Positions 1 to 19,495 of a stretch of DNA of 64,000 nt are shown here, piece by piece. The notes under the pieces were generated by a model that made no database searches, was not told where the DNA came from, and worked only from the letters and a program-made list of their open reading frames with translations. Every line of letters starts with the position of its first letter. Position 1 is the first letter of the stretch. The DNA comes from Desulfovibrio sp. JY (lineage in GTDB: Bacteria > Desulfobacterota > Desulfovibrionia > Desulfovibrionales > Desulfovibrionaceae), in the NCBI GenBank assembly GCA_021730285.1, contig CP082962.1, positions 2,728,001 to 2,792,000 of the forward strand. The letters run 5' to 3'. The position numbers were made by a program, and so were the translations under genes.

Positions 1-172
1 TGAAGTCCGTGACGACCAGGTCGAAGGGCGTTTCCTCGAGCCTGGCCAGGGCGGGGGCGGCGGACAGGAACGTCTCCACCACGCAGCCGTGCTTGGTCAG
101 GTGGATGCGCAGCATGTCGCCGACCACTTTCTCGTCGTCGATAACCATGATTCTAGGCGGTTGTGCTTGCAT
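1..172 (-). CDS. Response regulator receiver domain, C-terminus beyond window
   Basis: Only the first 57 codons are inside the window. They read as a receiver domain: acidic pair D12/D13 in a VIDDE motif and the phospho-acceptor D56 in VVTDF. The start at 172 overlaps the last 20 bases of the preceding kinase gene (stop at 153), so the two are translationally coupled, and the kinase is the likely phosphodonor. Whether an output domain follows cannot be seen. Being the last visible gene of the long leftward operon, it probably carries the output of that pathway. The family call is firm; the partner kinase is inferred from adjacency. Confidence 0.88.
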   Translation of the reverse strand, partial: MQAQPPRIMVIDDEKVVGDMLRIHLTKHGCVVETFLSAAPALARLEETPFDLVVTDF

Positions 173-1571
173 GGGATTCCTCCGTGGGGATCAGGGCCGG
201 CAGGTCGATGAAGCAGGTGGTGCCGGCGCCGACCGTGCTTTCCACCCGCAGCCGTCCCTGATGGTTTTTGACGATGCCGTAGCTGACCGAGAGCCCGAGC
301 CCGGTACCTTCGGTACCTTTGGTGCTGAAGAACGGATCGAAGATATGGGGCAGGATGTCGGGTGGGATGCCCTTGCCGGTATCGGACACCACGATGCGGG
401 CCGTGCCGTCGTCGGCGCGCGTGGCGATGCGCAGGCTGCCGCCCGGGCTCATGGACTGGATGGCGTTGGTGATGCAGTTGATGAGCACCTGGTGCATTTG
501 CGACACGTCGGCCTTGACCATGGGCGCGTCCGGGGCGAGGTCGAGGCGCAGGTCGATGTTGGAGACGTGGAGCATGTTGCGCACGAGCGGCAGCGTGCCC
601 TGCACGAGGTCGTTGAGGCATATCTGGCGCATGCTGGCCGTCTTGGGCTTGGAGAAGTCGAGCAGGTTGGTGACGATGCCGTGGATGCGGCCGCATTCCT
701 CCTGGATCTGGCGCATCATGTCCTTGCGGTCGGCCGGGGACAGGTCCTCGTCCATGGTCTCGAAGGTCTCGGCCATCATGGAGATGTTGTTGACAGGGTT
801 GGTGATCTCGTGGGCCACGCCGGCGGTCAGGGTGCCGAGGGAGGCGAGTTTTTTCGATTGCAGGATCTCGGCCTCGCGGGAGCTCAGGCGCTGCGACATG
901 CTGTTGACGGCCCGGATGACCGAGGCGAGCTCGTCCTTGCTGTGGGGCTCTTCGATGCTTTCGAACTTGCCTTCGGCGATGGCCCCGGCCAGCCGCTCGA
1001 CCTTGGCCAGGGAGAGCAGCACCTTGCGGAAAAGGAGCGGCGCGGCCAGCACGGCGGTGCAGACCACGGCGGCCAGGGACACGGTCATGGTGCGCCGGGA
1101 CAGGGCGATGATCTCGCTCACCTGCTCCCGTTCGCGGCTGACCAGGGCTGTGGAGAATTCCCGCAGGGCCCGGCCGGCCTCGCGCATGGACTGCTCCGAT
1201 TCCGGGCCGGCGTTGCCGCTGGCGGCGGCCGTGTCCACGGCGGCAGCGTAGGCGTCCAGGCGGCGGCGCAGGGCCAGGTAATTGGCCTCGCCGGCCCCGC
1301 GCACGATGCGGTCGCGCGATCTGGCCAGGGTGTCGCGGGTCTCCTCGATCTTGCTCGCGATCTCCCGAAGCGCGCCCTTGTCCTTGAAGAGAAACAGGTT
1401 TTTTTCCGAAAGCCGCATCTCCAGGAAATCGGCGTTGAGGTCGTCCTGGACTTCCACGAAGCGCAGCTTGTCCACCACCCGGTTCATGTCGTTTTGGGCC
1501 AGCAGGGCCAAGACGAGGATGAGCGCGAGGCTGACGCAACTGCCGACGATCAGCTTGGTCTTGATCTTCAT
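153..1571 (-). CDS. Membrane sensor histidine kinase, HBM-like sensor
   Basis: 472-residue sensor kinase. Membrane segments lie at about 7-25 and 161-181, enclosing a helical periplasmic sensor. That sensor carries the motif MRLSEKNLFLF (52-62), which resembles helical bimodular (HBM) domains and recurs in two other kinases of this window. A HAMP-like linker follows, then a HisKA domain with H254 in GVAHEITNP, and a HATPase domain with DTGKGIP and GTGLGLS boxes. The start at 1571 forms an ATGA overlap with the upstream DUF202 gene; a start further upstream would extend into that gene and lacks a typical signal-anchor. It is the penultimate visible gene of the operon and overlaps the response regulator after it. 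The ligand is unknown. Confidence 0.9.
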   Translation of the reverse strand: MKIKTKLIVGSCVSLALILVLALLAQNDMNRVVDKLRFVEVQDDLNADFLEMRLSEKNLFLFKDKGALREIASKIEETRDTLARSRDRIVRGAGEANYLALRRRLDAYAAAVDTAAASGNAGPESEQSMREAGRALREFSTALVSREREQVSEIIALSRRTMTVSLAAVVCTAVLAAPLLFRKVLLSLAKVERLAGAIAEGKFESIEEPHSKDELASVIRAVNSMSQRLSSREAEILQSKKLASLGTLTAGVAHEITNPVNNISMMAETFETMDEDLSPADRKDMMRQIQEECGRIHGIVTNLLDFSKPKTASMRQICLNDLVQGTLPLVRNMLHVSNIDLRLDLAPDAPMVKADVSQMHQVLINCITNAIQSMSPGGSLRIATRADDGTARIVVSDTGKGIPPDILPHIFDPFFSTKGTEGTGLGLSVSYGIVKNHQGRLRVESTVGAGTTCFIDLPALIPTEESHASTTA

Positions 1572-2617
1572 GCCGCGTCCCCTTCCGGGTCCATGCACCG
1601 GGGCGTGCGCACCGGCTCCTTGCGCACGGGCCAATACCAGAGCAGGCCATCGACGATCATGGCCACGCCGGCGACGACGAGCAGCCAGTCCACGATGGAC
1701 AGGGCGCTGGTCCCGAAATAGCGCAAAAGTCCGAGCCCGAGGCCCAGGATGGCCACGCCGGTGCGGATGAAGGCCAGGCCGGTGCGGGCCCGGGCGGCGA
1801 TGGTGCGGTAGCAGGCGCAGACCGTACGCTGGGCGGCCAGGACGTTGCGCTCCCGGGCCAGATGGATGCGTTCCGGCGCGCCGGAGGCGATTTCGAGGAT
1901 GGTGGCGTGGTTTTCGAGCATGTCGCCGAGGCGCGCCAGCATGGTGTGCTTGGACACCGGACGCGGCCTGCCGGGCTCCTCGATAAAGTGGTATTCCTCC
2001 AGGAACTGGAGCGCGGCGGCCGAGACCTCGACCAGGGTCTGGATGCCGGGCAGGCGGTGCCGCGACAGGCGCAGGCCCAGGTAGGCCCGTACGGCAAAGG
2101 CGGCCAGGGTCAGGCCGACGGCCAGCCCGGCGGCGTCGAGGGCCGTCTGCCAGGGCGTTTTGGCCGAGCGCAAAAGCGTGTTGCCAAGGGCCGTGAGCCC
2201 GAGGCCGAAGCGCATGACGTTAAGCCAGGTGCGGCCCGTGGCCATGTCCGTGCGCCAGCAGGCCAGGCGCGTGCGCCAGTGGGCCATGGTGTTGCGCCAG
2301 TAGGCCAGATTGGTGCGCACGACGCCGACCGGCGCGCCGGTCACGGACGGGGCGAAATCGGCGGCCAGCCGGCGCAGGTCGAGCGGCGCGGCCGGCACGA
2401 AGCGCAGGGCGTATTCGGGAAAGGCGCCGGCGGCCTCCGCGCGCAGGGCGGCGTTGTCCGGGAGGAGAGCGGCCACGACCACGGTTTGGCCGTCGCAAAG
2501 GGCGACCGGCAGCCAGTCGGCCCTGGCGAAGGTTTCGGCCGGGACCCGGGCCAGAAGTTCCGCCGGAATGCGCAGGCGTTCGTCGAAAACGAGGGGGGTG
2601 GCGGCATCAGGCGGCAT
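1568..2617 (-). CDS. Membrane protein with two DUF202 domains and GspE-N-like N-terminus
   Basis: 349 residues. Residues 10-90 resemble the N-terminal domain of GspE/PilB-type ATPases (MshEN-like; IPAELLARVP, then LPVALCDGQTVVVAA); this is a resemblance judged by eye. Two DUF202 (YidH-type) units follow at about 99-182 and 254-332. Each begins with an amphipathic helix of seven-residue repeats based on Arg-Thr (for example RTNLAYW, RTRLACW, RTDMATG) and runs into paired membrane helices. The ORF could be opened further upstream, but that would cross into the preceding gene; ATG 2617 overlaps its end by 11 bases. It is co-transcribed with a three-unit DUF202 protein and a kinase. DUF202 function is not established; these units resemble the Vtc1 part of polyphosphate polymerase complexes only distantly. 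Confidence 0.82.
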   Translation of the reverse strand: MPPDAATPLVFDERLRIPAELLARVPAETFARADWLPVALCDGQTVVVAALLPDNAALRAEAAGAFPEYALRFVPAAPLDLRRLAADFAPSVTGAPVGVVRTNLAYWRNTMAHWRTRLACWRTDMATGRTWLNVMRFGLGLTALGNTLLRSAKTPWQTALDAAGLAVGLTLAAFAVRAYLGLRLSRHRLPGIQTLVEVSAAALQFLEEYHFIEEPGRPRPVSKHTMLARLGDMLENHATILEIASGAPERIHLARERNVLAAQRTVCACYRTIAARARTGLAFIRTGVAILGLGLGLLRYFGTSALSIVDWLLVVAGVAMIVDGLLWYWPVRKEPVRTPRCMDPEGDAA

Positions 2618-4115
2618 TGTCCCCTCCCAACCCGGCGCTGGCCCGGCCCCAGGTCTCTTCGGGCATGGTGTAGTCCGGTACGGCCAGTTCGAAGTCCGCC
2701 GTGCACACGTCCGTGGCTTGCCTGGCCCGTCTGGCCGCGAGGTAGGCGCGCAGGCCGTCGGTAAGCAGCACGATGCCGCCGGCAATCAGTACGAGGTTGA
2801 ACACGGTCCAGCCGGTCGAACCCGTGCCGAACCAGGCGAGCAGGCCCAGGCCGACGGCCACGGCGTTGTTGCCGGTGCGAATAAGCGACAGACCGGTGCG
2901 GCCCCGGGCCATCTGGGTGCGCAGCCTTGCCAGGACGTTTCGTTCCTCGGCCAGGGTGGTGCGCTCAAGCGCCAGTCCGGTGGTTCCGAGCACGCCCGGC
3001 GCGGCGTCCGGCCAGGAGGGCGGGGGCGTGTCCGGGCCCGGGGGCGGGGCGGCCTCGGGCGACGCCATGGTGCGGGGGCTCGGGCAGGCTTCGGCACGGC
3101 AGACGGCGGCCTGGCACATGCGCCCGGCCCGTCTGGCCGGCAGATACCAGGACAGCCCTTCCAGGGCCATGACCGTGCCCACGGCGATAAGGCCGAAGCT
3201 GGCCACGTCCCAGGAACCGTGGTGAAACTGGCGGATCATGGCGATGCCGACGCCGGAGACGCCGATGCCGGTGCGCCCGAGGGCCAGACCGGTGCGGGAG
3301 CAGGCCATGACCGAACGCAGTTCGGCGAGCGTCGTGCGCTCCAGGGCCAGGCTCGTGCGATCCATGGCTAAAAAACGGCGTCGGGCCGTGGGGGACAAAA
3401 GCGCCCAGGCGGTCCGCAGCGCCCTGGCCCCGGGCACGGCCGGCAGCCAGCGGAAGCACGGCCAGAGCGGATCGGCGGCGACGGCCAGAACGCCGGTGTT
3501 GCCAAGGGCCGGATCGGGCAGGGGCACGGGATCGGGCTGGCCGCGATGGGAGGCGCGCCGGGCCGGCAGGTACCAGATGATGCCGTCGATAATGAAGAAA
3601 ATGCCGGCGCAAAGGACGATGGCCTCAAGCGGCAAAGTGTAGCCCAGGCCGAGGACCCGCAGCAGCACCAGGACCACGGTCAAAAAGGCGATGCCCGTGC
3701 GGAACATGGCCAGCCCGGTGCGGCCCCGGGCCAGGGTGGTGCGAAAGCCGGCCAGAAACGAGCGGCGCGCCGCCAGATAGGTGCGCACCTTGGCCAGGTC
3801 CGTTCGGGACGCCTCGGGCGGAAAGCCGGGGCACACGTCCAGGGTGTTGTTGACGATGTGGCGCACGATGGCGGGGTCGACCGCGATCAGGCGCACCTCG
3901 GCCACGCCAAGCGCCGCCTTGACGGTGGCCTCCAGGGCGTCGCTTACGCTGGCGGCCCAGATGACGGCCGTGTCGCCGTCGCTTGCGACCGGGGCCCACA
4001 TTCCTTCCCGCATGGCGGCAAGCGCCCCCCGGCCGCGAAAAGCCTTGGGAACGGCGAAATCCTCGTCCAGACCGGCCGGATCAAAGGTCTCCGGCGTGAA
4101 AATCCTGTCGGTCAT
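2607..4115 (-). CDS. Membrane protein with three tandem DUF202 domains
   Basis: 502 residues. An N-terminal alpha/beta region (about 15-95) resembles the one in the next gene. It is followed by three DUF202 units at about 104-187, 250-330 and 380-463. Each has the Arg-Thr heptad helix (RTTLARG, RTGLAMF, RTGIAFL in unit 1) and ends in a membrane hairpin closing with YLPARRA or YLAARRA. A Pro-rich linker (345-375) separates units 2 and 3. ATG 4115 is preceded by GAGGAG at good spacing, which favours it over an upstream in-frame ATG with low-complexity sequence. The gene follows the PEP-synthase-like genes and overlaps the two-unit DUF202 gene by 11 bases. Three DUF202 units in one chain is unusual; the family is normally single-domain. 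Role unknown. Confidence 0.83.
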   Translation of the reverse strand: MTDRIFTPETFDPAGLDEDFAVPKAFRGRGALAAMREGMWAPVASDGDTAVIWAASVSDALEATVKAALGVAEVRLIAVDPAIVRHIVNNTLDVCPGFPPEASRTDLAKVRTYLAARRSFLAGFRTTLARGRTGLAMFRTGIAFLTVVLVLLRVLGLGYTLPLEAIVLCAGIFFIIDGIIWYLPARRASHRGQPDPVPLPDPALGNTGVLAVAADPLWPCFRWLPAVPGARALRTAWALLSPTARRRFLAMDRTSLALERTTLAELRSVMACSRTGLALGRTGIGVSGVGIAMIRQFHHGSWDVASFGLIAVGTVMALEGLSWYLPARRAGRMCQAAVCRAEACPSPRTMASPEAAPPPGPDTPPPSWPDAAPGVLGTTGLALERTTLAEERNVLARLRTQMARGRTGLSLIRTGNNAVAVGLGLLAWFGTGSTGWTVFNLVLIAGGIVLLTDGLRAYLAARRARQATDVCTADFELAVPDYTMPEETWGRASAGLGGDNAA

Positions 4116-4125
4116 GGCTCCTCTC

Positions 4126-6705
4126 TTATGATGCTTCCTGCGCCGGGGCGTCGGCGGGTATGGCGGTTTCCCCGGCCTGGGCCCAAAAGGCGTCGGCCGC
4201 CCGGGCCGGGGCGTCATCGTCGGTCATGGCCGCGTCGAGGAGGCGCATGAAGGACAGCAGGCGGCCGAGCAACACGAGTCCCTTGGCGGCGTCGTCGCCG
4301 GAGACGTCGGTGAGGCTGGCGGTGACGAGGTCGCCGCGCCTGTCCACGTAAAACCCGGCCGCAGCCAGAATGTCGGCCAGGCAGGTGGCCCGGCGTTCGC
4401 GAAGCGGCGTGGCCGCGCCGCCGCCCTTGACGCGCAGCCGCACGTAATTGCCGCGCGTCCTCGGGCCGCACACGGCGTCGATCATGGCGAAATGAAATTC
4501 CACCCGGGCGTTGACGTTGACGTAGTCCCGCGCGGCCAGGGCGTAGTTGGGCTCGCCCACGGGCCTTTTGCCGCGCGCGTCGGTGATCCCCCGGCCCATG
4601 ACCCCGCTAACGTCCCGGCCGTTCGGTCCGGAGGGCGGCGTGGCGTAGGGCGTCGCCCCGGCGTTGAGCCCCTGCCACAAGGCGGCCAGCGGCTGGCTCG
4701 TCAGGTCGCCGGCGGTGATGAACCGGCCGGTTGCGTCTTCGCGCACGCCGCCGCCGAGGTCGATGACCATGACCTCGAAGGGCGCGTTGCCGCGCAGGAT
4801 GCGCACATGGCTGAAGGCTTCGTCGAGGAGCTCGTCCCCGGCCTCGAACAGGGCCAGGATGGCGGCCTCGTGGGCGAAGCGGATGATGTCGTGCAGGCTT
4901 TGGCATTCCACGGCCGCGAAGGTGGGGCCGTAGGCGTTGGTGAGGTTTAAGGGCACGGTCAGTTCGCGCACCCTGGCCCGGCCGGGCGTCAGGGCCACGC
5001 GCGGGGCCTTGGCCGTTTCCGGGCGCGGCGCGGCCAGGAGTTCCGACAGGTCGCCGATGACGGCGGGCATGGCCGAGACCGACCCGGCCGCGGCGTCCAA
5101 CACCGCCGGCACGCCGTCCGGAATGGCGGTGATCGCCCCGGTGGCCCGGGTGAGCATGGGCCGGCCCAGTTCCCGGGCCACGGTGGAAAGATGATCGGTG
5201 GGGTTGCCCCCGGCCGCGACCACGCCCTGCCAGGACGGGAGCAGCCGGGCCGCCTCGGGCGTGGCCGCCGCCAGCACCGCGATGACCGGGCCGGCAATGG
5301 GCGTGTCGAGGTTCTCCGGGCCGCGTACATGCCGGGTGCGGCCCAGGCACCGGCCGGGACAGGCGGCCATGCCGCCATGGAAATATTCGCCGCCGGCGAT
5401 GTCGGGCGTCGCGCCGCCGGCCTGCCCGGTCAGGCGCACCGGCCGGGACTGGAGCACGCGCAGCTCTCCCGAGGCGGTCACGGCCCATTCCATGTCCTGG
5501 GGCGCTCCGGCCAACGCCTCGGAGGCCAGACCCAGCCGGCACAACCGGGCGAGGGTCTCGGGGGAGACGACCGGACGTTCCCGCTCGTCTTCCGGCACGG
5601 CCTCGCGGCGCACGCCGCCGGCCGGATCGGGCACGGCCCGGATGGTCTTTGTCGCCGGCCGGGCGAGCACGTCGGCGAGGTCGTCGCGGGAGACGCGGAA
5701 AATATCGGTCGGGGCCTCGCCGTCCACGGCCAGGATGCCGAGCCCCGGCACGGCCGAGACCAGCAGGCGCCCGGAGGCGGGGCGCACCGGGTCCAGGGTG
5801 AAGAGCACCCCGGCGCCCACGGCCGGCACCATCTCCTGGACGAGCACGGCCATGTCGCAGGCGGCGGCGGGAAGCCCGGCTTGCAGGCGGTAGGCTACGG
5901 CCCGCTGGCCGAAGACCCCGGCCATGACCTCGAGAAAGCCGTTCTCCAGGGTATCCGGGGTGAGGTTTAAAACGGTGACGTACTGGCCGGCGAAGGAGTG
6001 CTCCAGCATGTCCTCGGTGAGCGCGCTGCTGCGGGCGGCCAGCCTGGCGGAGCCGTTTGCCGCGAGCCGTTCCCCGGCTTGGCGCAGGTCTTCGCGCAAC
6101 CAATCGGGAAGCGTCGCGTCCATGACGGCCTGGCGCGCCCTTTCGCAGGCGTCGGCCAGTCCCGGGCCTTCGGAACCGGCGGCGTGGAACATTTTGCGGA
6201 TGCGCCCGTCAAGGCCGGCTTCGCGCAGGAAATCCCGGCAGGCCCTGGCCGTGACCGCGAAGCCGTCCGGCACGGGAAAGCCGTTTTGCTTAAGCAGCGA
6301 CAGGCTCGCCGCCTTGCCGCCCACGCGCTTGGGGGCAAGGTTGCGGCCGAGCGGCTGGCACGACGGCTGGCGGGCCGTTTCCTCCATGGTCTCGAGCGCA
6401 ACGCGAAGGGCCTCTTCCAGGCGCAACTGCCGGGCGTAGAGGAGTTGATGCCCGCCGTCGGTCAGGCGGCTGACCCCGTCGACCAGTTCGAAGGTCACGG
6501 CCTGCAAGTCTTCCACAAGGCCCGTCAGTTCGGCCGTGGCGGCCCCGGTTTCCAGGGCCGCCTCGACCTTGGCCAACCTATCGAGGGCCCGTTCGTTGTT
6601 GGCGAGCAGGATGCGGAAGGTATGGTAGCGCACCTTGAGCGCGTCCAGGGCGGCCCGCCGCCTGGCTTCGCGTCGGTCCTTGAGCGCTCCCCAGGGGGTC
6701 CACAT
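4126..6705 (-). CDS. PEP-synthase-like phosphotransferase, third paralogue
   Basis: 859 residues. A helical N-terminal region (about 20-110) is followed by a PPDK/PEP-synthase ATP-binding domain with key motifs intact: ARSSALTED near 225 with SFAGQY, and QDMEW near 403 followed by LQSRPV. Next comes a swivelling phosphohistidine domain with H505 in TDHLSTVAREL. The C-terminal part (about 590-850) is not the usual PEP/pyruvate barrel. It shares motifs with the two upstream paralogues (CQSLHDIIRFAHE near 600, YVNVN...FHFAMIDA, RRGDLV). ATG 6705 overlaps the TGA of the preceding gene by one base. It probably makes a phosphohistidine from ATP, but the acceptor is unknown; it should not be annotated as ppsA without the barrel. 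Confidence 0.85.
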   Translation of the reverse strand: MWTPWGALKDRREARRRAALDALKVRYHTFRILLANNERALDRLAKVEAALETGAATAELTGLVEDLQAVTFELVDGVSRLTDGGHQLLYARQLRLEEALRVALETMEETARQPSCQPLGRNLAPKRVGGKAASLSLLKQNGFPVPDGFAVTARACRDFLREAGLDGRIRKMFHAAGSEGPGLADACERARQAVMDATLPDWLREDLRQAGERLAANGSARLAARSSALTEDMLEHSFAGQYVTVLNLTPDTLENGFLEVMAGVFGQRAVAYRLQAGLPAAACDMAVLVQEMVPAVGAGVLFTLDPVRPASGRLLVSAVPGLGILAVDGEAPTDIFRVSRDDLADVLARPATKTIRAVPDPAGGVRREAVPEDERERPVVSPETLARLCRLGLASEALAGAPQDMEWAVTASGELRVLQSRPVRLTGQAGGATPDIAGGEYFHGGMAACPGRCLGRTRHVRGPENLDTPIAGPVIAVLAAATPEAARLLPSWQGVVAAGGNPTDHLSTVARELGRPMLTRATGAITAIPDGVPAVLDAAAGSVSAMPAVIGDLSELLAAPRPETAKAPRVALTPGRARVRELTVPLNLTNAYGPTFAAVECQSLHDIIRFAHEAAILALFEAGDELLDEAFSHVRILRGNAPFEVMVIDLGGGVREDATGRFITAGDLTSQPLAALWQGLNAGATPYATPPSGPNGRDVSGVMGRGITDARGKRPVGEPNYALAARDYVNVNARVEFHFAMIDAVCGPRTRGNYVRLRVKGGGAATPLRERRATCLADILAAAGFYVDRRGDLVTASLTDVSGDDAAKGLVLLGRLLSFMRLLDAAMTDDDAPARAADAFWAQAGETAIPADAPAQEAS

Positions 6706-9029
6706 CACGCCCCCCTCCCGGCGGCTTCGAAATCGGCTTCCAGCGCGTCCACGTCGCCCGGGCCGGAAAGCCCCACGTCGCGCTGGCGGGTAAAGGCGGT
6801 CAGCCGGCCAAGCAGGGTCAGCGCCGCTTCCGCGACCTCGGCCTCGACCATCTTGAGCCGCGCCACCACCAGATCGCCCTCGGCCGAAGCCTTGAAATCG
6901 AACCGGGACAGCAGGCGCAGCAAAAAGGCCGCCCGGGCCGCCCGGGCCGTGGCGTGGGCCATGCCGCCCACGAACCGGAAGTAGACGGAATTCTTGTCCG
7001 GGTTGTCGCCGCAGTAGGCGTCCACCACGCTGAAATGGTAGCCCAGGCGCAGGCTGATGTTGCAATAGGAGCGGGCGGCGATGGCCAGGTTGCCGCCCCC
7101 CTTGCCGGCCATGCCCGTCATGGCGGCCATGGTGCGGTCCATGCCGCCGAGGATCTCGCGCAGCCCCACCCGGGCCGGGGACTGGTCCCACATGCCCGGG
7201 GCGACGACGCCGGCCAGGAAGGCGCGAAGCGGCCGGCTGCGCACGGCGTCGATGCCCTCGCCGTCCTCGGCTCCGGAGGCGAGCCCGCCGCCGATGTCGA
7301 GCACGCGCAGGAAAAGGGGCACCGGCAAGGGCAGCGGCTTGGCCAACGACTGCGACACCCCGGCGAGGCGCATCTCGGCCAGGGCGGTGACGGCTTTCTC
7401 GTGGGAAAAATGGATGAGGTCGTGAAAGGTGCGGCAGCCTTCTTCCGTGAAGTTCGGCGCGTCGGGATCGGTCAGGTTGAGCCCGGCGATGCGGCGCAGA
7501 AGCCGCCGCAGGGTCAGGTATTCGGGATCGTCAGGGCTCAGCCCCGCGTCCTGGGCGACGCGTCCGGTGCTGGCTCCCTTGCGCACCTCGCCCATCTCGG
7601 CGTCCACGGTGACGACCAGGCCCTCGGGCAGGGCGGCCAGCGCCCCGGGCAGGCCGAAAAGGGCCGGCGTGCGAAATTCGCGGGCCACGGCGGCCAGATG
7701 GCCGGCCGCGTCGCCCACCTCGGCCACCATGGCCCCGGCCCGGCGCAGCACCGGGGCCAGGACCGGCGAGGCCGACCGGGTCACGGCCACGGCCCCGAAG
7801 GGAAAATCCGCCGGATCGGTGCGGTCGGTGACGTGGATGACCGCGCCGCTGCCGCGTCCCAGGCAGGCGGCCTCGCCGCCGTAAAGGAGCAGCTCGCCTT
7901 CGGGACGTGCGGCTTCGCCACAGGACTGGCAGGCGCGCATGGCCACCCGGGTGAAATGAAACGCGCCCCCGGTATCCCGGAAAAAATCGAGGACAAGCGG
8001 CCCGCCGAGGAGCCGTTCGGCGGCGAGAGCCAGGCCGGCCAGGGCGGCGGCCGCGTCGAACGGGAGCAGGGCCGTGCCGCGCAGGTGGCCGTTTGGGGCC
8101 GGGGACAGGGGCTTTTCGCCGTCGGGCAGGGGCCTGTCCAGGTCCTTTGGGGCAAGGCGCGAGCGGCGCACGGCAAAAGGATGGGCCCGCTCCAGGTAAA
8201 AGACATCCGGCGCGTCCGGGTGCTCGGGCGAGGCGACCTCGATGACCAGGAACTCCCCGCCGTCCGGGGCGGTGTCCAGGGTGCGGACAAGGCCGGTCAT
8301 GACGGCCGGCGTTTCGGCCAGGATCAGGGCCGTGGGCTGCTCCTGCGGCGCGTGCTGCCGTGCCTTTTGCATTTCCCGTGTCAGGGCCGGGATGACGGCT
8401 TCGGGGGTGGCCGCGCCGCGCCAGAACCCGAGGCCTTCGCCGGAGGCGGCTTCGACGCGGACCATGACGTCCGCCGGGGCGTCCTTGTCGCCAAAAGCGG
8501 CCAGGGCCTGGGTGAGCGCCCGACCCGCCGCGTCGGTCGGACCGGCGTCGTCGAAGGCGGCGGTGGTCAGGGCCACGCCTTGCGGCACGGGCAGGCCCAG
8601 GTGGCCGGAAAGTTCGCCCAGGGCCGCCGGGCCGAAGCCGACCTTGGGCCGGTCCTCCAGGCGCAGGCCGGCGAGGTCGCGCACCGTGTCCTCGTCGCCC
8701 GCCGGCGGACGCCCGGCCAGGATGTCCTCCACGGCGGCGTTTATGGCCATGTAGCGGTCGTAAAGGGCCACGTGGGCGTTCCCGGTCATGGCGTTCAGGG
8801 CATACACGGTCTGGTGGGTCAGTTCCGCCACTTCCCGGGCGGCCTTGTCCAGAAAGCTGCGGTCGAAGATGTATTCGCCGCCGAGCATGCGTTCCATTTC
8901 CGCCATCTTGGCCAGGGCGGCGGTGTTGGATTCCAGCAGCGACCGGAACTTGGAGAAAAGCGAGCGCGCGGTGCGGCTCGGGTCCGCCCCGGCCGGTCCG
9001 ACGGACGGGGGGGCGAATTCAGCCGGCAT
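6705..9029 (-). CDS. PEP-synthase-like protein with degenerate ATP domain, second paralogue
   Basis: 774 residues, same layout as its neighbours: helical N-terminus (LFSKFRSLLESN, about 23-110), ATP-grasp region, phosphohistidine domain with H444 in AAGHLAAVAREFR, and the shared C-terminal domain (CRTFHDLIHFSHEK near 530). Unlike the paralogues, the ATP-binding motifs are gone. The RSSA/ED/FAGQY block is replaced by VRVEAASGEGLGFW, and no QDxEW motif is present. The phosphohistidine site is kept. This pattern suggests a non-catalytic or acceptor partner rather than an independent kinase (inference). It overlaps the upstream receiver gene by 11 bases and the downstream paralogue by one base. 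Confidence 0.83.
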   Translation of the reverse strand: MPAEFAPPSVGPAGADPSRTARSLFSKFRSLLESNTAALAKMAEMERMLGGEYIFDRSFLDKAAREVAELTHQTVYALNAMTGNAHVALYDRYMAINAAVEDILAGRPPAGDEDTVRDLAGLRLEDRPKVGFGPAALGELSGHLGLPVPQGVALTTAAFDDAGPTDAAGRALTQALAAFGDKDAPADVMVRVEAASGEGLGFWRGAATPEAVIPALTREMQKARQHAPQEQPTALILAETPAVMTGLVRTLDTAPDGGEFLVIEVASPEHPDAPDVFYLERAHPFAVRRSRLAPKDLDRPLPDGEKPLSPAPNGHLRGTALLPFDAAAALAGLALAAERLLGGPLVLDFFRDTGGAFHFTRVAMRACQSCGEAARPEGELLLYGGEAACLGRGSGAVIHVTDRTDPADFPFGAVAVTRSASPVLAPVLRRAGAMVAEVGDAAGHLAAVAREFRTPALFGLPGALAALPEGLVVTVDAEMGEVRKGASTGRVAQDAGLSPDDPEYLTLRRLLRRIAGLNLTDPDAPNFTEEGCRTFHDLIHFSHEKAVTALAEMRLAGVSQSLAKPLPLPVPLFLRVLDIGGGLASGAEDGEGIDAVRSRPLRAFLAGVVAPGMWDQSPARVGLREILGGMDRTMAAMTGMAGKGGGNLAIAARSYCNISLRLGYHFSVVDAYCGDNPDKNSVYFRFVGGMAHATARAARAAFLLRLLSRFDFKASAEGDLVVARLKMVEAEVAEAALTLLGRLTAFTRQRDVGLSGPGDVDALEADFEAAGRGA

Positions 9030-9435
9030 GACGCGCGCCCGGCAGGGTGGTCTCGAGCCGCCTGACCACGTCCAGGATGTCGGCCAGTTTGAACGGCTTG
9101 GCCACGAAATCGAAGGCCCCCTTGTGGAAGGACTCCTTGGCCGTCTCCAGGGTGGCGAAGCCGGTGATGACGATGCAGCCGACGGTTGGCGAGACGGCCT
9201 TGACCTTTTCCAGAAAGCCCATGCCGTCGAGGCCGTCCATCTTGAGGTCCGTGATGACGATGTCGGCCGGGGCCTCGGCGAACCGGGCCAGGGCGGCCTC
9301 GCTTTCGGTGAAGGTCTCCACGTCGTAGCCGGCCTTCTGGAAGGCGGGTCTCAAGCGTTTGACCACGATGGGCTCGTCGTCGAGGATGAGGATGCGGCGT
9401 TTCTTGGCGGTTGCGGCGTCGTTGGCGTCGATCAT
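9019..9435 (-). CDS. Single-domain response regulator
   Basis: 138-residue stand-alone receiver with no output domain. D19/D20 form the acidic pocket, D63 in VITDLKMDG is the phospho-acceptor, T in VITGFA and K in AKPFK complete the active site. A 13-residue hydrophilic N-terminal tail precedes the domain. It is sandwiched between two PEP-synthase-like genes: ATGA overlap with the upstream one and an 11-base overlap with the downstream one. Coupling this tight suggests it acts with these proteins as a phosphate shuttle or allosteric switch rather than on DNA (inference). Confidence 0.92.
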   Translation of the reverse strand: MIDANDAATAKKRRILILDDEPIVVKRLRPAFQKAGYDVETFTESEAALARFAEAPADIVITDLKMDGLDGMGFLEKVKAVSPTVGCIVITGFATLETAKESFHKGAFDFVAKPFKLADILDVVRRLETTLPGARHAG

Positions 9436-12008
9436 TTGATATCCTCCATCACCGGTTTGATGGCGGCCAGGAATTCCTCGGCAAAGCAGTGCGCGTCGCC
9501 CTCGCGGCTCATGCGCACGTCGAGCTGGCGCGTAAATCCGACCAGGCCGCCGAGCAGGCGCAGTTTGGCCCGCATGGCTTCCTTGTCAAGGGACTTGATG
9601 CGGCCGACCACCAGGTCGCCGTGCAGTTCCACCCGGAAATCCGAGCGTTCGAGGATCTTGCCGATGCAGCCCGCGCGCCGGGCCCGCCGGCGGAAATCCG
9701 TTACCCCGCCGAGAAAGCGGAAGTACAGGCTGTTGTCGGCCGGCACCTCGCCGACGTAGGCGTCGACGAGCACGAAGTGGTAGCCCAGGTGCAGATTCAG
9801 GTTCATGTACTCCCGGGACACCACGGCCAGATTGCGCCCGAGCTTGGCCGTGGCCCCGTCCCGGGGGCCGTAGGTGCGCGTGAGGCTCGCCATGAAGCTG
9901 CCCATGTCCACGGACACGGGTTCGGTGCTCCACATGCCGGAGTCGTCGAGTCCCCGCAACAGTTCCGAAAGCGGCAGGGAGGCCAGGGCGGCGGGTTCGA
10001 TCTCGCCCATGCCGCCGCGGGCCTCACCGTCGAGGTCGATGATGAAGAGGTTTAAGGGCAGGGAGGTCTTGAGCCGGGCGGCCGCGGCGTCGAGCAGGCC
10101 CTGGCCGGATTCGCTCAGTTCGATCAGCTCGGCCACGGATTTTTCGTGAATGAACCGCGTGATGTCATGGTAGGTGCGGCAGGAGGCCGGGGCGAAGTCC
10201 CGCGAATGGGGATCGACCAGGGCCAGGGGCGTGATCTTCTTGAGCAGCCGGCGCAGCAGCCGGTATTCGTAGGAGTCCTCGTAGACGTCCTCCTCGGTCA
10301 GCTCGAAAAAGCGCAGTTCCTTGATGAGCCCCCGGTAGACCACGTTCTGGGTGGCGTCCACGGTGATCTCGTCGCCGGTTTTGAGCAGTTCCGTGGCCAC
10401 GCCGCAGCCGACGATGGTGGGCACGCGGAATTCCCGGGCCACGGTGGCCATGTGCCCGGCCGGGGAACCGATGTCGGTCAGGATGCCCTGGGCCCGGGAC
10501 ATGATGCGCGAATAGCGCGGCGAGGTGTGGCGCGAGACGAGGATGGCCCCGAAGGGGAAGTCGTCGAGATCCTCCTCGTTCTGGACCACCTGCACCTTGC
10601 CCATGGCCACGCCGCGCTGGACCACGTCGCCGCGTCCGGAAAAGACGGCCTCGGCCTGGCTGGTGGCCGCGTCGATGGCCCCGGTGCGCTTTTCCGGCCG
10701 GCCGGAAAAGACCAGGGCCCGGCTTTGCAGGATGTAGAGCCGGCCGGCGGCGTCGAAAGTCCATTCCACGTCCTGGGGCCGCTTGAAATATTTTTCCAGG
10801 GTCAGCGCCGCTTCGCCAAGCAGGCTCAGGTCCGCTTCGCTCAAGCAGGAAACCCCGGCCAGTTCCTCGGGCACGGGCACGAAATCCGCGCCGCCGCCGG
10901 GAGTGAGCACCATCTGCCGGGTCTTTTGGGCAATATCCCGGGAGGTGGCGGCAAAGGGGGAATGGCGCTGGAGCAGGAAGGTGTCGGTCTCGATCTCGCC
11001 GCCGACCACGGGCGCGCACTGGCCCCAGGCGGCGCTGACGAAAACGCCTTCCTCTTTTTCGGTCATGGGCGCGTAGGTGTAGAGCGCGCCGCTGACGCGG
11101 GAGTCGATCATGACCTGGCAGCCCACGGCCATGACCGCCTCGTGTTCCTTGAATCCCCGGCGGCGGCGGTACAGCCAGGCTTCCGGGGAATAGAGGCTGG
11201 CCACGACTTTCTTGAAGGCGGTGTGGATCTCCGTCGGAGCCACGCCGATGACGCTCTCGTACTGGCCGGCGAAGGTGGTCTCGCCGTCCTCGTCCCAGGC
11301 GCTGCTGCGAAGGGCCAGTGCCTCGGGCGCGCGGCCGAGCCGTTCGGTGAGTTCGTCCAGGGATGCGGCCAGACTGCGGGCCAGGCCACGGGGAATGCTG
11401 GCCGCGAGGATATGGGCGGTGACGGCCCAGGACACGCCCCGGATGTTTTTTTCCTCGTCGAGGTCCAGAAGCTTGGCCTGCTCGCGGATGAATTCCGGCA
11501 GATTGTTTTTGGCCATGAAATCGGCGAACGCGCCGGTGGTGACGACAAAGCCGTCGGGCACGGGCAGGGCGAGCCTGTTTTTGAGCTCCCCGAGCATGGC
11601 GAACTTGCCGCCCACGGCCTCGCCCATGTCCGCGCGAAGCGCCGACAGGGGCAGGGTGGGGGGGGTGTCCGGGAAGCGGTGCCGGCCGGCGAGCTCGTCC
11701 TGCATTTCCTGGCGGATGCGCTCGAAGGCGGCGAAAAGTTCGACGTTTTTGCCCTGGTCGAGGATGGACAGGTCGGAGACGAGCTTGAAGACCTGGTCGG
11801 AGAGTTCCTCGCAGGCGGATTCGATGTAGCGGCGGTCGAAGACGTATTCGCCGCCGAGCTTGTCGGCCATGTCGGCCATGAGCGTGAGAATGCGGTTGTT
11901 GCGCTCGAGGACGCTCTTGAACTTCTTGAAGAGCACCACGAAGGGAACCGGGGCCTTGCCCCGCCGCCAGAAGCATACCGCGTCGCGGATACCGCTTAAC
12001 ACGCCCAT
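9432..12008 (-). CDS. PEP-synthase-like phosphotransferase, first paralogue
   Basis: 858 residues. Helical N-terminus (LFKKFKSVLERNN, about 27-110). PPDK_N-type ATP-binding domain with LRSSAWDEDGE near 232 and FAGQYES just after, and PQDVEW near 413 leading to ILQSRAL. Phosphohistidine domain with H519 in SPAGHMATVAREFR. C-terminal domain from about 560, with CRTYHDITRFIHEK near 610 and YMNLNLHLGYHF further on. It replaces the PEP/pyruvate-binding barrel expected of PEP synthase. All ATP-side motifs look functional, so autophosphorylation from ATP is plausible; the phosphoacceptor substrate is not. It begins 32 bases after the TIGR02186-type gene ends and overlaps the receiver gene (ATGA). 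A degraded metabolic enzyme is possible but less likely given three linked copies. Confidence 0.86.
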   Translation of the reverse strand: MGVLSGIRDAVCFWRRGKAPVPFVVLFKKFKSVLERNNRILTLMADMADKLGGEYVFDRRYIESACEELSDQVFKLVSDLSILDQGKNVELFAAFERIRQEMQDELAGRHRFPDTPPTLPLSALRADMGEAVGGKFAMLGELKNRLALPVPDGFVVTTGAFADFMAKNNLPEFIREQAKLLDLDEEKNIRGVSWAVTAHILAASIPRGLARSLAASLDELTERLGRAPEALALRSSAWDEDGETTFAGQYESVIGVAPTEIHTAFKKVVASLYSPEAWLYRRRRGFKEHEAVMAVGCQVMIDSRVSGALYTYAPMTEKEEGVFVSAAWGQCAPVVGGEIETDTFLLQRHSPFAATSRDIAQKTRQMVLTPGGGADFVPVPEELAGVSCLSEADLSLLGEAALTLEKYFKRPQDVEWTFDAAGRLYILQSRALVFSGRPEKRTGAIDAATSQAEAVFSGRGDVVQRGVAMGKVQVVQNEEDLDDFPFGAILVSRHTSPRYSRIMSRAQGILTDIGSPAGHMATVAREFRVPTIVGCGVATELLKTGDEITVDATQNVVYRGLIKELRFFELTEEDVYEDSYEYRLLRRLLKKITPLALVDPHSRDFAPASCRTYHDITRFIHEKSVAELIELSESGQGLLDAAAARLKTSLPLNLFIIDLDGEARGGMGEIEPAALASLPLSELLRGLDDSGMWSTEPVSVDMGSFMASLTRTYGPRDGATAKLGRNLAVVSREYMNLNLHLGYHFVLVDAYVGEVPADNSLYFRFLGGVTDFRRRARRAGCIGKILERSDFRVELHGDLVVGRIKSLDKEAMRAKLRLLGGLVGFTRQLDVRMSREGDAHCFAEEFLAAIKPVMEDIK

Positions 12009-12040
12009 GACCGTTTTGCCTTTCTAGTCGCAGGGCCCGG

Positions 12041-12793
12041 CTAGTGCGCCCCGCTTTTGGAACCGCTGCACAGCTGGCCGATGATGAAGCCGCCGAGGAT
12101 GGCGATGATCGAGGCCAGGACGCCGAAAAGCAGCCCATGGTTGAAGGCCATGTTGGCCATGAACGCCGGAATGCCCACGAACGAGGCTGCCACGTCCACC
12201 TCGCCGAGCGCCGTCTCGGTCCCGCCGGCGACGGCAAAGGCCTCCACGGCATAGGCGCCGGGGGAAAGCCGGGAAGGCACGTGGAGCACGGCGGTAAACG
12301 GCCGCATGCCGTCGGCCTCCGGGCCGAAGGTGACCGTGCCGGCATGGTCCTTATATAGCTTTTCGGCCCGCTGGTAATGCAGGAATTCCTTGATGAGCCC
12401 GGCCTTGTCCGGGGACTTGGCCTCCGCGGTGATGCGCTCGGCCAGCCCGGGAATGCCCAGATGGTCCAGGCTTGCTTCCGGCAGGCCGTCCGAGGCGGCG
12501 ATGAGAAACACCTTGGGCGCGCCGGTGAAGGTCACCTTGTCGAGGTTCATCCACAAGACGCCAAGCGCCTTGCCCTTCTGCTTCATGTGGAAGGTGTCGG
12601 GTTCGCCGGACAGGCGCACGGCCACTTGGGCGCCGGCCGGGGCCTTGCCCGTGACCGTCAGGTCGATGCCGTCATAGAGCGCGCCGATGCGGATAGCCGG
12701 GGGCGTGACCGCAAGCGCCGGGTCCTCGGCGGCGAAGGCCGAAGCCGGGGCCAGAAGACAACACAAGGTCAGGAGGAGAAGTACGCGCCGCAT
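12041..12793 (-). CDS. TIGR02186-type membrane protein linked to TSUP permease
   Basis: 250 residues with a cleavable-looking signal peptide (RRVLLLLTLCCLLAPASAFA) and one C-terminal membrane helix (about 215-240, LLFGVLASIIAILGGFIIGQ). The body is a beta-rich extracytoplasmic domain beginning PPAIRIGALYDGIDLTVTG. This fits the TIGR02186/Alph_Pro_TM family, which commonly neighbours TauE/SafE permeases. Start ATG 12793 lies one base after the permease stop (TAGCATG); an upstream in-frame ATG would sit inside the permease gene. It probably acts at the outer face of the membrane with the permease. Its molecular function is unknown. Confidence 0.82.
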   Translation of the reverse strand: MRRVLLLLTLCCLLAPASAFAAEDPALAVTPPAIRIGALYDGIDLTVTGKAPAGAQVAVRLSGEPDTFHMKQKGKALGVLWMNLDKVTFTGAPKVFLIAASDGLPEASLDHLGIPGLAERITAEAKSPDKAGLIKEFLHYQRAEKLYKDHAGTVTFGPEADGMRPFTAVLHVPSRLSPGAYAVEAFAVAGGTETALGEVDVAASFVGIPAFMANMAFNHGLLFGVLASIIAILGGFIIGQLCSGSKSGAH

Positions 12794-12794
12794 G

Positions 12795-13733
12795 CTAGTG
12801 TCCTCCAATGGCCGCCAGCAGCACATTGGGGCGGGCCAGCAGTTCGTAGAGCATCTTGAACATGACGATCAGCACGATGCCGGCCAGGTAGACCTTCAGC
12901 TGGTCGCCCTGCAGCTTGCGGCCGATGCGGGCGCCGATCTGGGCCCCCAGGGCCGAGCCGATCAGCAGGATGAGCGCCAGGACGAAGTCCACGGTGTGGT
13001 TGGTCCAGGCCTGCATGATGGTGACGTTAAGGCAGGTGAAAAGCACCTGAAAGAGGCTCGTGCCCACGACCACGTGCATGGGCATGCGCAGCATGTAGAC
13101 CATGACCGGAACCATGATGAAGCCGCCGCCGACGCCCATGATGGCGGAGAGCACGCCGACCAGGCTGCCCAAAAACAGGGGCATGATCAGCGACATGCGC
13201 ACGCCCGAGCGGGGGAATTCCATCTGGAAGGGCAGGCTGGCCATCATCCTGGCGTAGCCGGAGGGCTTTTTGGGCGCGGCCGGCTTTTGCGACGGATTCT
13301 TGGCCTTGCGCATGGAGGTGATGGACTCGATGAACATGTAGGAGCCCACGCTGCCGAGCATGAGCACGTAGGTGATGCTGATGAGAAAGTCGGCGTTGCC
13401 CATGGCCCGCAGGACCTTGATCAGCTGGACGCCCAGCGTGCCGCCGACGACGCCGCCGATCAGCAGCAGCAGGCCCATCTTGACGTCGACGTTGCCGAGC
13501 CGCAGGTGGATGAGCGTGCCCGAGGTGGAGGCGCCCACGATCTGGTTGGAGTCCGAAGCCGCGGCCACGGTGGGCGGAATGCCCATCATCATCAGAAGCG
13601 GCGTCATCAGGAAGCCCCCTCCGACGCCGAAGATGCCCGAGAGAAGTCCCACACCCCCACCCAGGCCGAGTACGGCCAGGATGTTCACCGAGTTTCCGGC
13701 GATGGGCAGGTACATGGTCATGGGAATGCTCAT
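12795..13733 (-). CDS. TSUP (TauE/SafE) family anion permease
   Basis: 312 residues, multi-pass. Two related halves each contain the family signature: GLLSGIFGVGGGFLMTPLL near 30 and GVLSAIMGVGGGFIMVPV near 200, with about eight hydrophobic helices and a basic cytoplasmic loop (about 135-175) between them. TSUP proteins move sulfite, sulfoacetate, sulfonates or other small organic or sulfur anions; the substrate here cannot be read from sequence. ATG 13733 overlaps the stop of the stress-protein gene (ATGA). As second gene of the operon it suggests the pathway senses or handles an exported or imported anion. Confidence 0.9.
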   Translation of the reverse strand: MSIPMTMYLPIAGNSVNILAVLGLGGGVGLLSGIFGVGGGFLMTPLLMMMGIPPTVAAASDSNQIVGASTSGTLIHLRLGNVDVKMGLLLLIGGVVGGTLGVQLIKVLRAMGNADFLISITYVLMLGSVGSYMFIESITSMRKAKNPSQKPAAPKKPSGYARMMASLPFQMEFPRSGVRMSLIMPLFLGSLVGVLSAIMGVGGGFIMVPVMVYMLRMPMHVVVGTSLFQVLFTCLNVTIMQAWTNHTVDFVLALILLIGSALGAQIGARIGRKLQGDQLKVYLAGIVLIVMFKMLYELLARPNVLLAAIGGH

Positions 13734-14170
13734 GTCGCCTTTCCTTTTGGCTGCGTTGCCGTTTCGTCCTTGCGCGGACTGACAAGCTCCACCCGGCACG
13801 AAACCCGGTGCAGGATCTGGCGCAGGGACTGTGTTTCCCGCTCCGATTGCCGCCCCTCGGCGTCGGTTGTTTCCGCCACCAGCAGCGTGACCTTGCGGTC
13901 CTTGGCGAATCGGATCACCTCATCCTCGAAGATCCCCTCGGCCACGAACCACTCGATGGCGACGCCCTCGGACCGGGCCCGTTCGACGAGCAGGCGCAGC
14001 TGCCGCCGCGCCTCCACTTCGGCCAGCGGCGGGGTCGCCTGTCCCTCGGGCGGGGCCGTGACGAAGAGCACGGACACCTTGGCCGGAATGCGCCGGGCCA
14101 GGGCAACGGCCCGTCCCAGCGCTCCGAAGGCCCCATGCCGGGGCGTCATGCAAACGAGTATGTGTTCCAT
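13730..14170 (-). CDS. UspA-type universal stress protein, first gene of operon
   Basis: 146 residues with a Usp-like alpha/beta order: ILVCMTPRHGAFGALGRAVALA at the start, VSVLFVTAP, VAIEWFVAEG, and VTLLVAETTD near 110. The canonical ATP-binding GxxGxxxxS motif is not evident, so nucleotide binding is uncertain. ATG 14170 is preceded by GGGAGGG at about 11 bases. It leads the leftward operon and overlaps the permease gene by four bases. Many TSUP operons begin with such a protein, so it may be a cytoplasmic accessory factor (inference). Confidence 0.8.
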   Translation of the reverse strand: MEHILVCMTPRHGAFGALGRAVALARRIPAKVSVLFVTAPPEGQATPPLAEVEARRQLRLLVERARSEGVAIEWFVAEGIFEDEVIRFAKDRKVTLLVAETTDAEGRQSERETQSLRQILHRVSCRVELVSPRKDETATQPKGKAT

Positions 14171-14191: not shown

Positions 14192-14207
14192 AGCAACCTG
14201 CGGGCCA
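14192..14207 (-). promoter_or_regulatory. Candidate sigma-54 promoter for the leftward operon
   Basis: Read on the minus strand the bases are TGGCCC-GCAGG-TTGCT, close to the TGGCAC-N5-TTGC consensus with GG and GC ten bases apart. An NtrC-type activator is encoded next door. Against it, the predicted transcription start (about 14181) would lie downstream of the GGGAGGG ribosome site at 14182-14188 and only about 11 bases from ATG 14170, so the message would be nearly leaderless. Confidence 0.4.
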
Positions 14208-14323: not shown

Positions 14324-14340
14324 TGTTCCGAAGTGGAACA
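14324..14340. promoter_or_regulatory. Perfect 6-5-6 palindrome, candidate activator binding site
   Basis: TGTTCC-GAAGT-GGAACA is a perfect inverted repeat with a 5-base spacer. A second, weaker one, GTTTC-N9-GAAAC, lies about 25 bases to the left (14284-14302). It sits between the two divergent operons, roughly 117 bases from the leftward and 51 bases from the rightward sigma-54-like elements. That is where an enhancer-type site for the neighbouring NtrC-family regulator would be expected. The binding protein is inferred. Confidence 0.4.
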
Positions 14341-14390
14341 TGCGGCCCCAGGCGACCGGGACGGGTTCAATGAAATGAGCAGGTTATGTT

Positions 14391-14406
14391 TGGAATGGGG
14401 ATTGCT
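14391..14406 (+). promoter_or_regulatory. Candidate sigma-54 promoter for the kinase/NtrC pair
   Basis: TGGAAT-GGGGA-TTGCT has GG and GC ten bases apart, as sigma-54 requires, and a perfect TTGC -12 element; the -24 element differs at two positions. The predicted start near 14416 leaves a leader of about 84 bases before ATG 14500, which is reasonable. It would make the activator self-regulated. Confidence 0.42.
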
Positions 14407-17799: not shown

Positions 17800-17810
17800 G
17801 GAAATGTTCC

Positions 17811-19493: not shown

Positions 19494-19495
19494 GC

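Follow-up and report, generated by a model that had tools for sequence, protein, structure and literature searches.

Operon layout and control region

The DNA analyzed here is a 64,000-nucleotide stretch of Desulfovibrio sp. JY (contig CP082962.1, positions 2,728,001 to 2,792,000; hereafter, the window), at whose left end eleven minus-strand genes form an operon that joins a TSUP-type permease to three proteins resembling phosphoenolpyruvate (PEP) synthase, named PEPS1, PEPS2 and PEPS3. Reading leftward from position 14170, the order is a Usp-family protein, the TSUP permease, a TIGR02186-type protein, PEPS1, a receiver (REC), PEPS2, PEPS3, two DUF202 proteins (D3 and D2), a histidine kinase (HK) and a response regulator (RR). 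Seven of the ten junctions are overlaps (4, 4, 11, 1, 11, 4 and 20 bases) and the other three are gaps of 1, 32 and 10 bases, none exceeding 32. The eleven genes are very likely one co-transcribed unit. A preliminary description of this DNA had proposed a tightly packed operon running in a single direction, and its coordinates and gene list were found to be correct. The Pfam domains in the window's proteins are Usp, TauE, Alph_Pro_TM, PPDK_N with PEP-utilizers, Response_reg, DUF202, and HisKA, HATPase_c and HAMP. No Rfam family matched in the window at gathering scores, and no tRNA was found.

The Usp-family protein (146 residues; 13730..14170; PF00582, 39.3 bits) shares an ATGA overlap with the gene for the 312-residue TSUP/TauE permease (12795..13733), which scores 161.1 bits against PF01925, compared with a gathering score of 32.6, and is thus a member of that family. 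The next protein, of the Alph_Pro_TM or TIGR02186 type (250 residues; 12041..12793), passes the cut-off of PF09608 (112.5 against 24.5 bits), and its 43.8 bits against the NCBIfam model TIGR02186 lie under the curated cut-off of 255.25. TSUP and TIGR02186 proteins are a known pair of neighbours, and in the window they stand side by side as in that pairing, but are joined to a cassette of PEPS and receiver genes. REC is a single-domain receiver (138 residues; 9019..9435; PF00072, 92 bits). At the far end of the operon, HK is a 472-residue sensor kinase with HAMP, HisKA and HATPase domains by Pfam (153..1571), followed by RR, which starts at 172 and ends 208 bases past the window's left edge, as read from an adjoining stretch of the same genome (L009). 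RR (126 residues) is a lone receiver with no output domain. Ten bases past its stop codon lies a perfect terminator-like palindrome with T and A runs (L009, 13741-13782; 259-218 bases left of window base 0), and the G+C-rich stretches around it look repeated by eye.

A sigma54 -24/-12 promoter-like site, TGGCCCGCAGGTTGCT (14192..14207, minus strand), ends 21 nucleotides before the Usp start. Using a score and threshold of our own definition, we examined 22 loci upstream of Usp, or of TSUP if no Usp was called, and found a site above threshold in 19, always 12-27 nucleotides before the start, where shuffled sequences predicted 2.0; the three loci lacking one are those scored upstream of TSUP, with no Usp called there. 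Farther upstream, 170 bases before the Usp start, is a perfect palindrome, TGTTCC-N5-GGAACA (14324..14340, minus strand; 0 mismatches), which is a candidate upstream activating sequence (UAS). With three or fewer mismatches allowed, 14 of the 19 loci scored have it 163-172 nucleotides ahead of Usp, although three of these 14 have 3 mismatches, which is near the shuffle mean (best matches in shuffled sequences average 3.3-4.3 mismatches). The best matches in L061 and L010, with 2 mismatches, lie at 126 and 128 bases instead, and upstream of L070, L071 and L011, among the 19 loci scored, there was no good match.

Divergent from the operon are a sensor histidine kinase (14386..15942, plus strand), assigned to the core cassette by comparison of loci and by Pfam, and an NtrC-type sigma54 activator of receiver-AAA-Fis architecture (15939..17282, plus strand; PF00072, PF00158 and PF02954), with a GAFTGA motif in its translation. 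A kinase, an NtrC-type protein, or both, of this divergent type lie near 20 of the 23 core loci described below, not always divergently, and the exceptions are two contig ends and one absence within 2.8 kb (G010). The sigma54-like site, the palindrome and the divergent pair together suggest that the operon is switched by its own kinase/activator pair, and we consider this very likely. The preliminary description had noted neither the sigma54 site nor the divergent pair, nor the lone-receiver character of RR; the MshEN domain and the loss of the PEPS2 ATP site, presented below, are also additions to it. To the right of the NtrC gene, four open reading frames (16993-22192) had no Pfam match, and the frames chosen may not be genes.

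This arrangement resembles that of DVU0539-DVU0545, where a divergent kinase and NtrC-type regulator face genes for Usp, an anion transporter and a small membrane protein. DVU0542-0545, which carry molybdate fitness phenotypes (PMC10102598), are driven by DVU0539 (PMC3333781) and listed as sigma54-dependent (PMC4641369, Table 1). However, the transporter there is of the PSE type (TC 2.A.98) rather than TSUP, and PEPS, REC and DUF202 do not figure in the descriptions of that locus in these sources. Orthology with DVU0542-0545 was ruled out by the PSE transporter and the lack of PEPS in that description (PMC10102598). DVU0118 with its target DVU0123-0121, known from a table row (PMC4641369), is a possible, unconfirmed orthologue of the window operon.

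The PEPS proteins and their C-terminal domain

PEPS1 (858 residues; 9432..12008) begins with a helical N-terminal end, followed by an ATP-grasp domain (about residues 115-437), a swivel domain (about 450-570) bearing a histidine (H519), and a new C-terminal domain (about 575-858). PEPS3 (859 residues; 4126..6705) retains the ATP site and the histidine, and PEPS2 (774 residues; 6705..9029) retains the histidine and the C-terminal domain, with loss of the ATP site. By Pfam, PEPS1 and PEPS3 have both PPDK_N and PEP-utilizers, and PEPS2 has only the latter. To evaluate the active residues, we aligned 78 members of the family. K135, R234, E415, Q428, R430 and H519 are conserved in all PEPS1 (23/23), other paralogues (30/30) and PEPS3 (12/12); we take the first five to be the phosphate- and metal-binding residues of the ATP site, as in pyruvate phosphate dikinase (PPDK) and rifampin phosphotransferase. 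Among PEPS2 proteins, the 13 sequences long enough to check (from 16 of the 23 loci) have the lysine, glutamate and glutamine in 0/13 and each arginine in 3/13. H519 is present in 53/53 PEPS1 and paralogues, 13/13 PEPS2 and 12/12 PEPS3, and PEPS2 also retains most conserved C-terminal positions. Judged from these residues, PEPS2 is a copy that has lost its ATP site and kept its histidine. The earlier proposal of three ATP-driven phosphohistidine proteins is therefore supported for PEPS1 and PEPS3, which keep every residue checked, and is rejected for PEPS2 on account of the missing ATP-site residues.

The AlphaFold model of PEPS1 (mean pLDDT 82.8) placed these domains among known structures. 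The ATP-grasp model superimposed on PEP synthase 2ols (Z 39.0, 1.9 Å over 312 residues), the PEPS1 model matched rifampin phosphotransferase 5hv3 (Z 37.1, 2.4 Å over 313), and the swivel model matched the PPDK, enzyme I and pyruvate kinase C-domains (enzyme I 2wqd, Z 17.2, 2.0 Å over 119 residues). In both sequence and predicted fold, then, the ATP-grasp and histidine swivel are like those of PEP synthase, PPDK and rifampin phosphotransferase, but the resemblance ends after the swivel, where the position of the PEP/pyruvate barrel is taken by the C-terminal domain of about 280 residues. The barrel family PEP-utilizers_C had no Pfam match in the three PEPS proteins (E 0.01) or in 39 C-terminal domains (E 1), and in our reading the helices and strands of the C-terminal model do not follow one another as in the barrel. 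The scores also fall far under the NCBIfam cut-offs for PEP synthase (PEP_synth, 296.2 against 739.75 bits) and rifampin phosphotransferase (195.6 against 999). Since there is no sign of a PEP-binding barrel, we do not class the PEPS proteins as PEP synthases, and the label "PEP-synthase-like" of the preliminary description is, by sequence, true of the N-terminal two thirds only. The domain order differs from that of rifampin phosphotransferase as well, because the PEPS histidine domain (about 450-570 of 858) stands ahead of the new domain, whereas rifampin phosphotransferase runs from ATP-grasp through a rifampin-binding domain to a histidine at the C-terminal end.

The C-terminal domain is conserved, with invariant or near-invariant positions H614, D615, H621, R778, D798 and G820, and bears no Pfam name. 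No Pfam family exceeded its cut-off in the first member examined, and none was common to more than 2 of 39 members (best E, 0.0044); a profile search of the PDB gave a best match at E 0.44. Modelled alone (pLDDT 83.4), the domain found no better than E 0.047 by Foldseek and Z 5.6 by VIA-align (4.7 Å over 105 residues), and such weak matches to a predicted model do not show that the fold is new. We found no paper describing the window operon or naming this domain, in a search whose coverage left out most subscription journals.

These structural likenesses raise the possibility that the PEPS proteins are metabolic phosphotransferases, with the new domain binding a small molecule moved by TSUP and the two-component genes only controlling the pathway. 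Their closest structures (2ols, 5hv3 and PPDK) are indeed small-molecule dikinases, and the invariant C-terminal positions are such as a binding site would have. Against this stands the retention of PEPS2 in 16 of 23 loci, even though its ATP site was absent in 13 of 13 copies checked. With this and the points below, we judge a metabolic role rather unlikely.

Recurrence of the core cassette and its company

To evaluate how far the arrangement extends, we compared 23 loci containing a PEPS1 orthologue, drawn from the order and from named Desulfovibrionaceae. The series Usp-TSUP-TIGR02186-PEPS1-REC, with or without PEPS2 and PEPS3, recurs as a core, whole or cut by contig ends, in the 22 loci from further relatives, and is also present at many loci across the phylum, so the gene order is not unique to this strain, an outcome that the preliminary description had named as one that would count against it. 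TSUP and TIGR02186 lie upstream of PEPS1 in 22 of 23 loci, the contig ending there in the remaining one, and REC directly follows PEPS1 in all 23, with residues D19, D20, D63, T91 and K113 conserved in every REC orthologue (23/23). PEPS2 copies, whole or cut by a contig end, were found in 16 of the 23 loci, and some deeper lineages have other genes in place of PEPS2 and PEPS3; in L070, one of the two replacing genes is a Usp by Pfam and the other has no Pfam match. The operon thus consists of two parts, a phylum-wide core and a separate, rare tail of two DUF202 genes, HK and RR, which is considered in the last section.

We then examined the neighbours of PEPS genes at 40 loci, which stand for 40 of the 107 positive genomes and were chosen among the highest-ranking hits, not at random. 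As a control we used 142 overlapping nine-gene windows containing 302 genes, from 20 hand-placed regions in 20 of these genomes. Gene calling followed a simple open reading frame rule, with no gene finder, and neighbours were named by phmmer with the window's proteins, so that the numbers given for TSUP are minima. At least 29 loci had a TSUP no more than four genes from PEPS, and at the same distance 16 had a TIGR02186 protein, 33 a receiver-bearing gene and 24 a histidine kinase; the corresponding control windows numbered 0 for TSUP, 9 for receivers and 16 for kinases. The proposed tie between PEPS, TSUP and receivers is borne out by these counts. A purely regional or chance gene order with no functional coupling could draw on the variation of the Usp, PEPS2/3 and DUF202 parts between lineages, but is already contradicted by the tight overlaps, the phylum-wide recurrence, the 0 of 142 control windows with TSUP and the recurrence in a second phylum (L208), and we regard it as scarcely conceivable.

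The association between PEPS and TSUP also has a phylogenetic component. On a FastTree phylogeny of 85 rows, the 59 PEPS beside a window-type TSUP required 2 changes, compared with 22.5 after shuffling (none of 500 shuffles was as low), and the TSUP types T1 and T2 required 6 against 11.4 and 4 against 9.7 changes (0 of 500 each); the tree includes PEPS2 copies, two of its long branches meet, and near-copies help the clustering. Three PEPS beside window-type TSUP (L145, L120 and L130) group with other types. As far as these sequences go, PEPS clades follow TSUP clades.

The receiver is an equally close companion. Of 60 PEPS genes, 32 have a lone receiver as their immediate neighbour, in 28 cases on the same strand, as opposed to 1 of 302 control genes. 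This adjacency, the intact REC active-site residues (23/23), and the two kinases and three receivers at the window locus are what would be expected if the system were purely one of signalling, in which the PEPS proteins sensed ATP or energy charge and passed phosphate to receivers, so combining the cell's energy state with the signal from the kinase, and TSUP were merely a co-regulated target. We consider that explanation distinctly unlikely, because the matching of PEPS and TSUP clades, together with mutant phenotypes shared among cassette genes (PMC4001038), ties PEPS to the permease. In addition, the related cassette in which those phenotypes were obtained has no DNA-binding regulator as tabulated (PMC4001038, Table 3), so that a signal there would have no evident transcriptional outlet.

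Among the 144 unnamed neighbours of PEPS, the commonest family was Usp (15), followed by DUF4881 and Metallophos (5 each), and no metabolic family was common among the 25 families shown of 112, which also speaks against a metabolic role. Some loci had other companions. PEPS paralogues lie near proteins of the sodium:sulfate-symporter type in L082 (by Pfam) and in L083 and L090 (by BLAST cluster only), and near CBS-domain proteins in L082 and L084 (Pfam). In L132, L135, L137 and L154, proteins of 206-208 residues are found near a TSUP of 418-443 residues and PEPS, and one of them, in L135, is a DUF4881 protein by Pfam.

We compared the distribution of the C-terminal domain with that of dsrA. 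At E 1e-10 or better, a profile of the domain (A2) matched 107 of the 297 genomes sampled from the phylum, and at E 1e-50 or better dsrA (TIGR02064) matched 144 of this set. Both were present in 102 genomes, the domain without dsrA in 5, dsrA without the domain in 42, and neither in 148; the five genomes with the domain and no dsrA match are all 62-80% complete. In the window genome itself, dsrA matched twice. Nine genomes were reached by way of loci; the three Desulfovibrionaceae among them had 5-7 domain matches each, and the other six, including a Nocardia and three cyanobacteria, had none. In a second phylum, the domain occurred in 4 of 140 genomes. Three of these four also had dsrA, as did 1 of 20 tested among the 136 others. 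TSUP lay within two genes of PEPS in 3 of 6 loci there, one of them in a genome with no dsrA match, and one locus (L208) reads HK-TSUP-TIGR02186-PEPS-receiver-receiver. Since dsrA and PEPS share phylogeny, a Fisher p value overstates the association; in both phyla the C-terminal domain accompanies dissimilatory sulfite reductase, though not without exception.

The nitrate cluster and a proposed licensing of the permease

A cassette of this kind is already in print, with no mechanism, as the nitrate cluster of Desulfovibrio (DVU0251-0245 / Dde_0597-0605; PMC4001038), so the earlier statement that parts of the operon were known and the system could not be named stands for the TSUP-TIGR02186 pairing, but overlooked a relative with published phenotypes. 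What the window operon adds is an undescribed domain, an ATP-dead partner and a DUF202 arm. According to that report, D. vulgaris with insertions in the TSUP gene DVU0251, in DVU0250, in the receiver gene DVU0247 or in the PPDK-like gene DVU0246 grew equally with or without 100 mM nitrate, and a leaky thiosulfate transporter was proposed for the cluster by Korte and others (PMC4001038). The window genome (G000) has its own orthologue of the cluster elsewhere (L079:6560-15834; G000:C1, approximately 1.875-1.885 Mb), reading TauE, a hypothetical protein, a phosphonate-binding protein, a histidine kinase with cache and PAS domains, a receiver, a PEPS with the new domain, and a DSP phosphatase, which from TSUP onward is the gene order of the nitrate cluster.

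The window operon likewise brings together TSUP, a histidine kinase, a lone receiver and PEPS. It differs in having TIGR02186-type and Usp genes instead of the phosphonate-binding protein and DSP phosphatase, neither of which Pfam detected in the ten window proteins scanned although both are in L079, and in its three PEPS copies, divergent NtrC pair and DUF202-HK-RR tail; its TSUP also falls in a different cluster from the nitrate-cluster TSUP. By analogy, the strongest indication that TSUP, receiver and PEPS would work as one unit comes from the phenotypes shared across the nitrate cluster. The PEPS-like gene lies downstream of TSUP, so insertions in it should not silence TSUP by polarity. 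Protection against nitrate by loss of a paralogous PEPS-like gene also sits poorly with a metabolic role for PEPS, nitrate not being a known energy source of these strains (PMC4001038).

These results are consistent with a model in which the operon equips dissimilatory sulfate reducers with a TSUP anion-permease module under two-component control, whose PEPS phosphohistidine proteins license transport; we give this reading a probability of roughly 0.4. In this model, the divergent kinase and NtrC-type activator would switch on the operon through sigma54, and TSUP, helped by the TIGR02186-type protein, would move a sulfur oxyanion (sulfite, thiosulfate or sulfate) or a look-alike across the membrane. 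PEPS1 and PEPS3 would load phosphate from ATP onto the swivelling histidine in the fashion of dikinases, and the phosphate, or a conformational change, would be passed on through the new C-terminal domain instead of going to pyruvate. PEPS2, lacking the known ATP-binding residues, may be a relay or regulatory copy. REC would couple PEPS to the histidine kinases, such that phosphorylation, acting in the direction REC-PEPS-TSUP, licenses or gates TSUP.

A bolder form of the model, which we think doubtful, is that the module represents a new class of phosphorylation-controlled anion transport, comparable to a phosphotransferase system (PTS) for oxyanions, in which an ATP-charged, dikinase-like histidine, an undescribed acceptor domain of no recognised fold, lone-receiver control and an ATP-dead PEPS2 relay would together gate or energize TSUP. 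PTS enzyme I shares with PEPS the histidine swivel and, by analogy, the role of a phosphate carrier tied to a transporter, but PEPS has an ATP-grasp domain in place of PEP input and a TSUP-type transporter, and the Pfam scan found neither HPr nor EII among the operon genes.

Several observations weigh against the licensing model. TSUP was not called within four genes of PEPS at 11 of the 40 loci, although wider TSUP seeds paired three of these (L122, L133 and L151) with a TSUP; 42 of the 144 dsrA genomes had no match to the C-terminal domain, and the second-phylum PEPS genome G632 has no dsrA match. The published phenotypes belong to a paralogous cassette, and the presence of the new domain in DVU0246 is deduced from synteny. 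In the same report, the DVU0250 mutant was low in the pooled assay yet resistant alone, DVU0248 is given as a pseudogene for the strain used, and nitrate resistance is given only for the DVU0251-0245 genes and their D. alaskensis homologues (PMC4001038). PEPS might be under the control of REC, or might have a metabolic role in which TSUP is the transporter, and structure and family matches do not tell the ligand of the C-terminal domain; phosphotransfer and transport are predictions.

How sulfate reducers control sulfate, sulfite, thiosulfate and toxic look-alikes such as nitrate and molybdate is an open question that matters for oil souring and corrosion, and a survey of sulfate transporters in these organisms considered the function of their TSUP proteins not yet predictable (PMC5840216). 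A conserved domain with no Pfam name beside TSUP permeases and signalling genes bears on this question. If PEPS phosphorylation does gate TSUP, the unexplained nitrate-cluster phenotype would gain a mechanism and the TSUP substrate would become testable in Desulfovibrio.

The DUF202 tail

The preliminary description had placed a membrane DUF202 assembly at the center of the system, as its output. D3 (2607..4115) is a membrane protein whose three DUF202 units each have RTxLA heptads next to them in the alignment; Pfam passes two of these stretches in the window protein, and the third is visible by alignment and in the L117 orthologue. D2 (1568..2617) has an MshEN domain (33.1 bits against a cut-off of 23.1) followed by two DUF202 units, and lacks an N-terminal stretch present in L117 and L121; the MshEN domain makes D2 a possible c-di-GMP receptor. 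Aligned D3 and D2 proteins carry arginine-threonine heptads ahead of the DUF202 units, and an N-terminal MshEN domain is found in D2 and some D3 orthologues.

Among the 23 core loci, the D3-D2-HK-RR tail was found in two, that of the window genome and that of G011, its closest relative (PEPS1 96% identical). A D3 profile matched 7 of 297 genomes of the phylum and 6 of 199 of the order, which makes 12 distinct genomes. Five (G000, G011, G353, G110 and G319) have D3 in or directly beside a PEPS cassette, and in G159 roughly 5 kb separate it from a cassette, on the TSUP side; these six genomes span five families. No PEPS was found in the stretch fetched around D3 in the other six, one such stretch being cut by a contig end, and in one of them, G007, the contig also carries a PEPS cassette at a distance of about 25 kb. 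DUF202 was not seen at most PEPS loci mapped. We therefore regard the tail as a module of its own, one that has joined PEPS cassettes repeatedly and in different families. Because it is rare and separate, occurring in 12 genomes, half of them lacking PEPS in the fetched stretch, the DUF202 proteins as core output were ruled out. In this lineage, the tail may be an added second sensory or membrane arm of the licensing module.

Recurrence of D3 in or beside the PEPS cassette in 5 of 12 genomes, and near it in a sixth, across five families, might also be read as the mark of a membrane machine fed by PEPS, for instance one making polyphosphate in the manner of VTC proteins, whose transmembrane unit is DUF202. 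Such a machine is very improbable, given that D3 is in so few genomes (7/297 and 6/199), with six showing no PEPS nearby in the stretch fetched, that most mapped PEPS loci have no DUF202, and that Pfam detected DUF202 and MshEN and no VTC catalytic domain in D3, D2 or eight relatives.

Two further loci contain related or adjoining genes. L074 has a different DUF202 protein, accompanied by a kinase and a response regulator: at L074:6987-8087 (G041), a 367-residue protein carries 34 RTx[LFWM][AS] heptads that keep a register of 7 without a break, followed by one DUF202, and it adjoins the HK-RR pair downstream of the PEPS cassette. At L121:15042-17949 (G110), CBS-domain-like and branched-chain ABC transporter-like genes, recognized by eye from the translation, lie beyond the kinase of the cassette.

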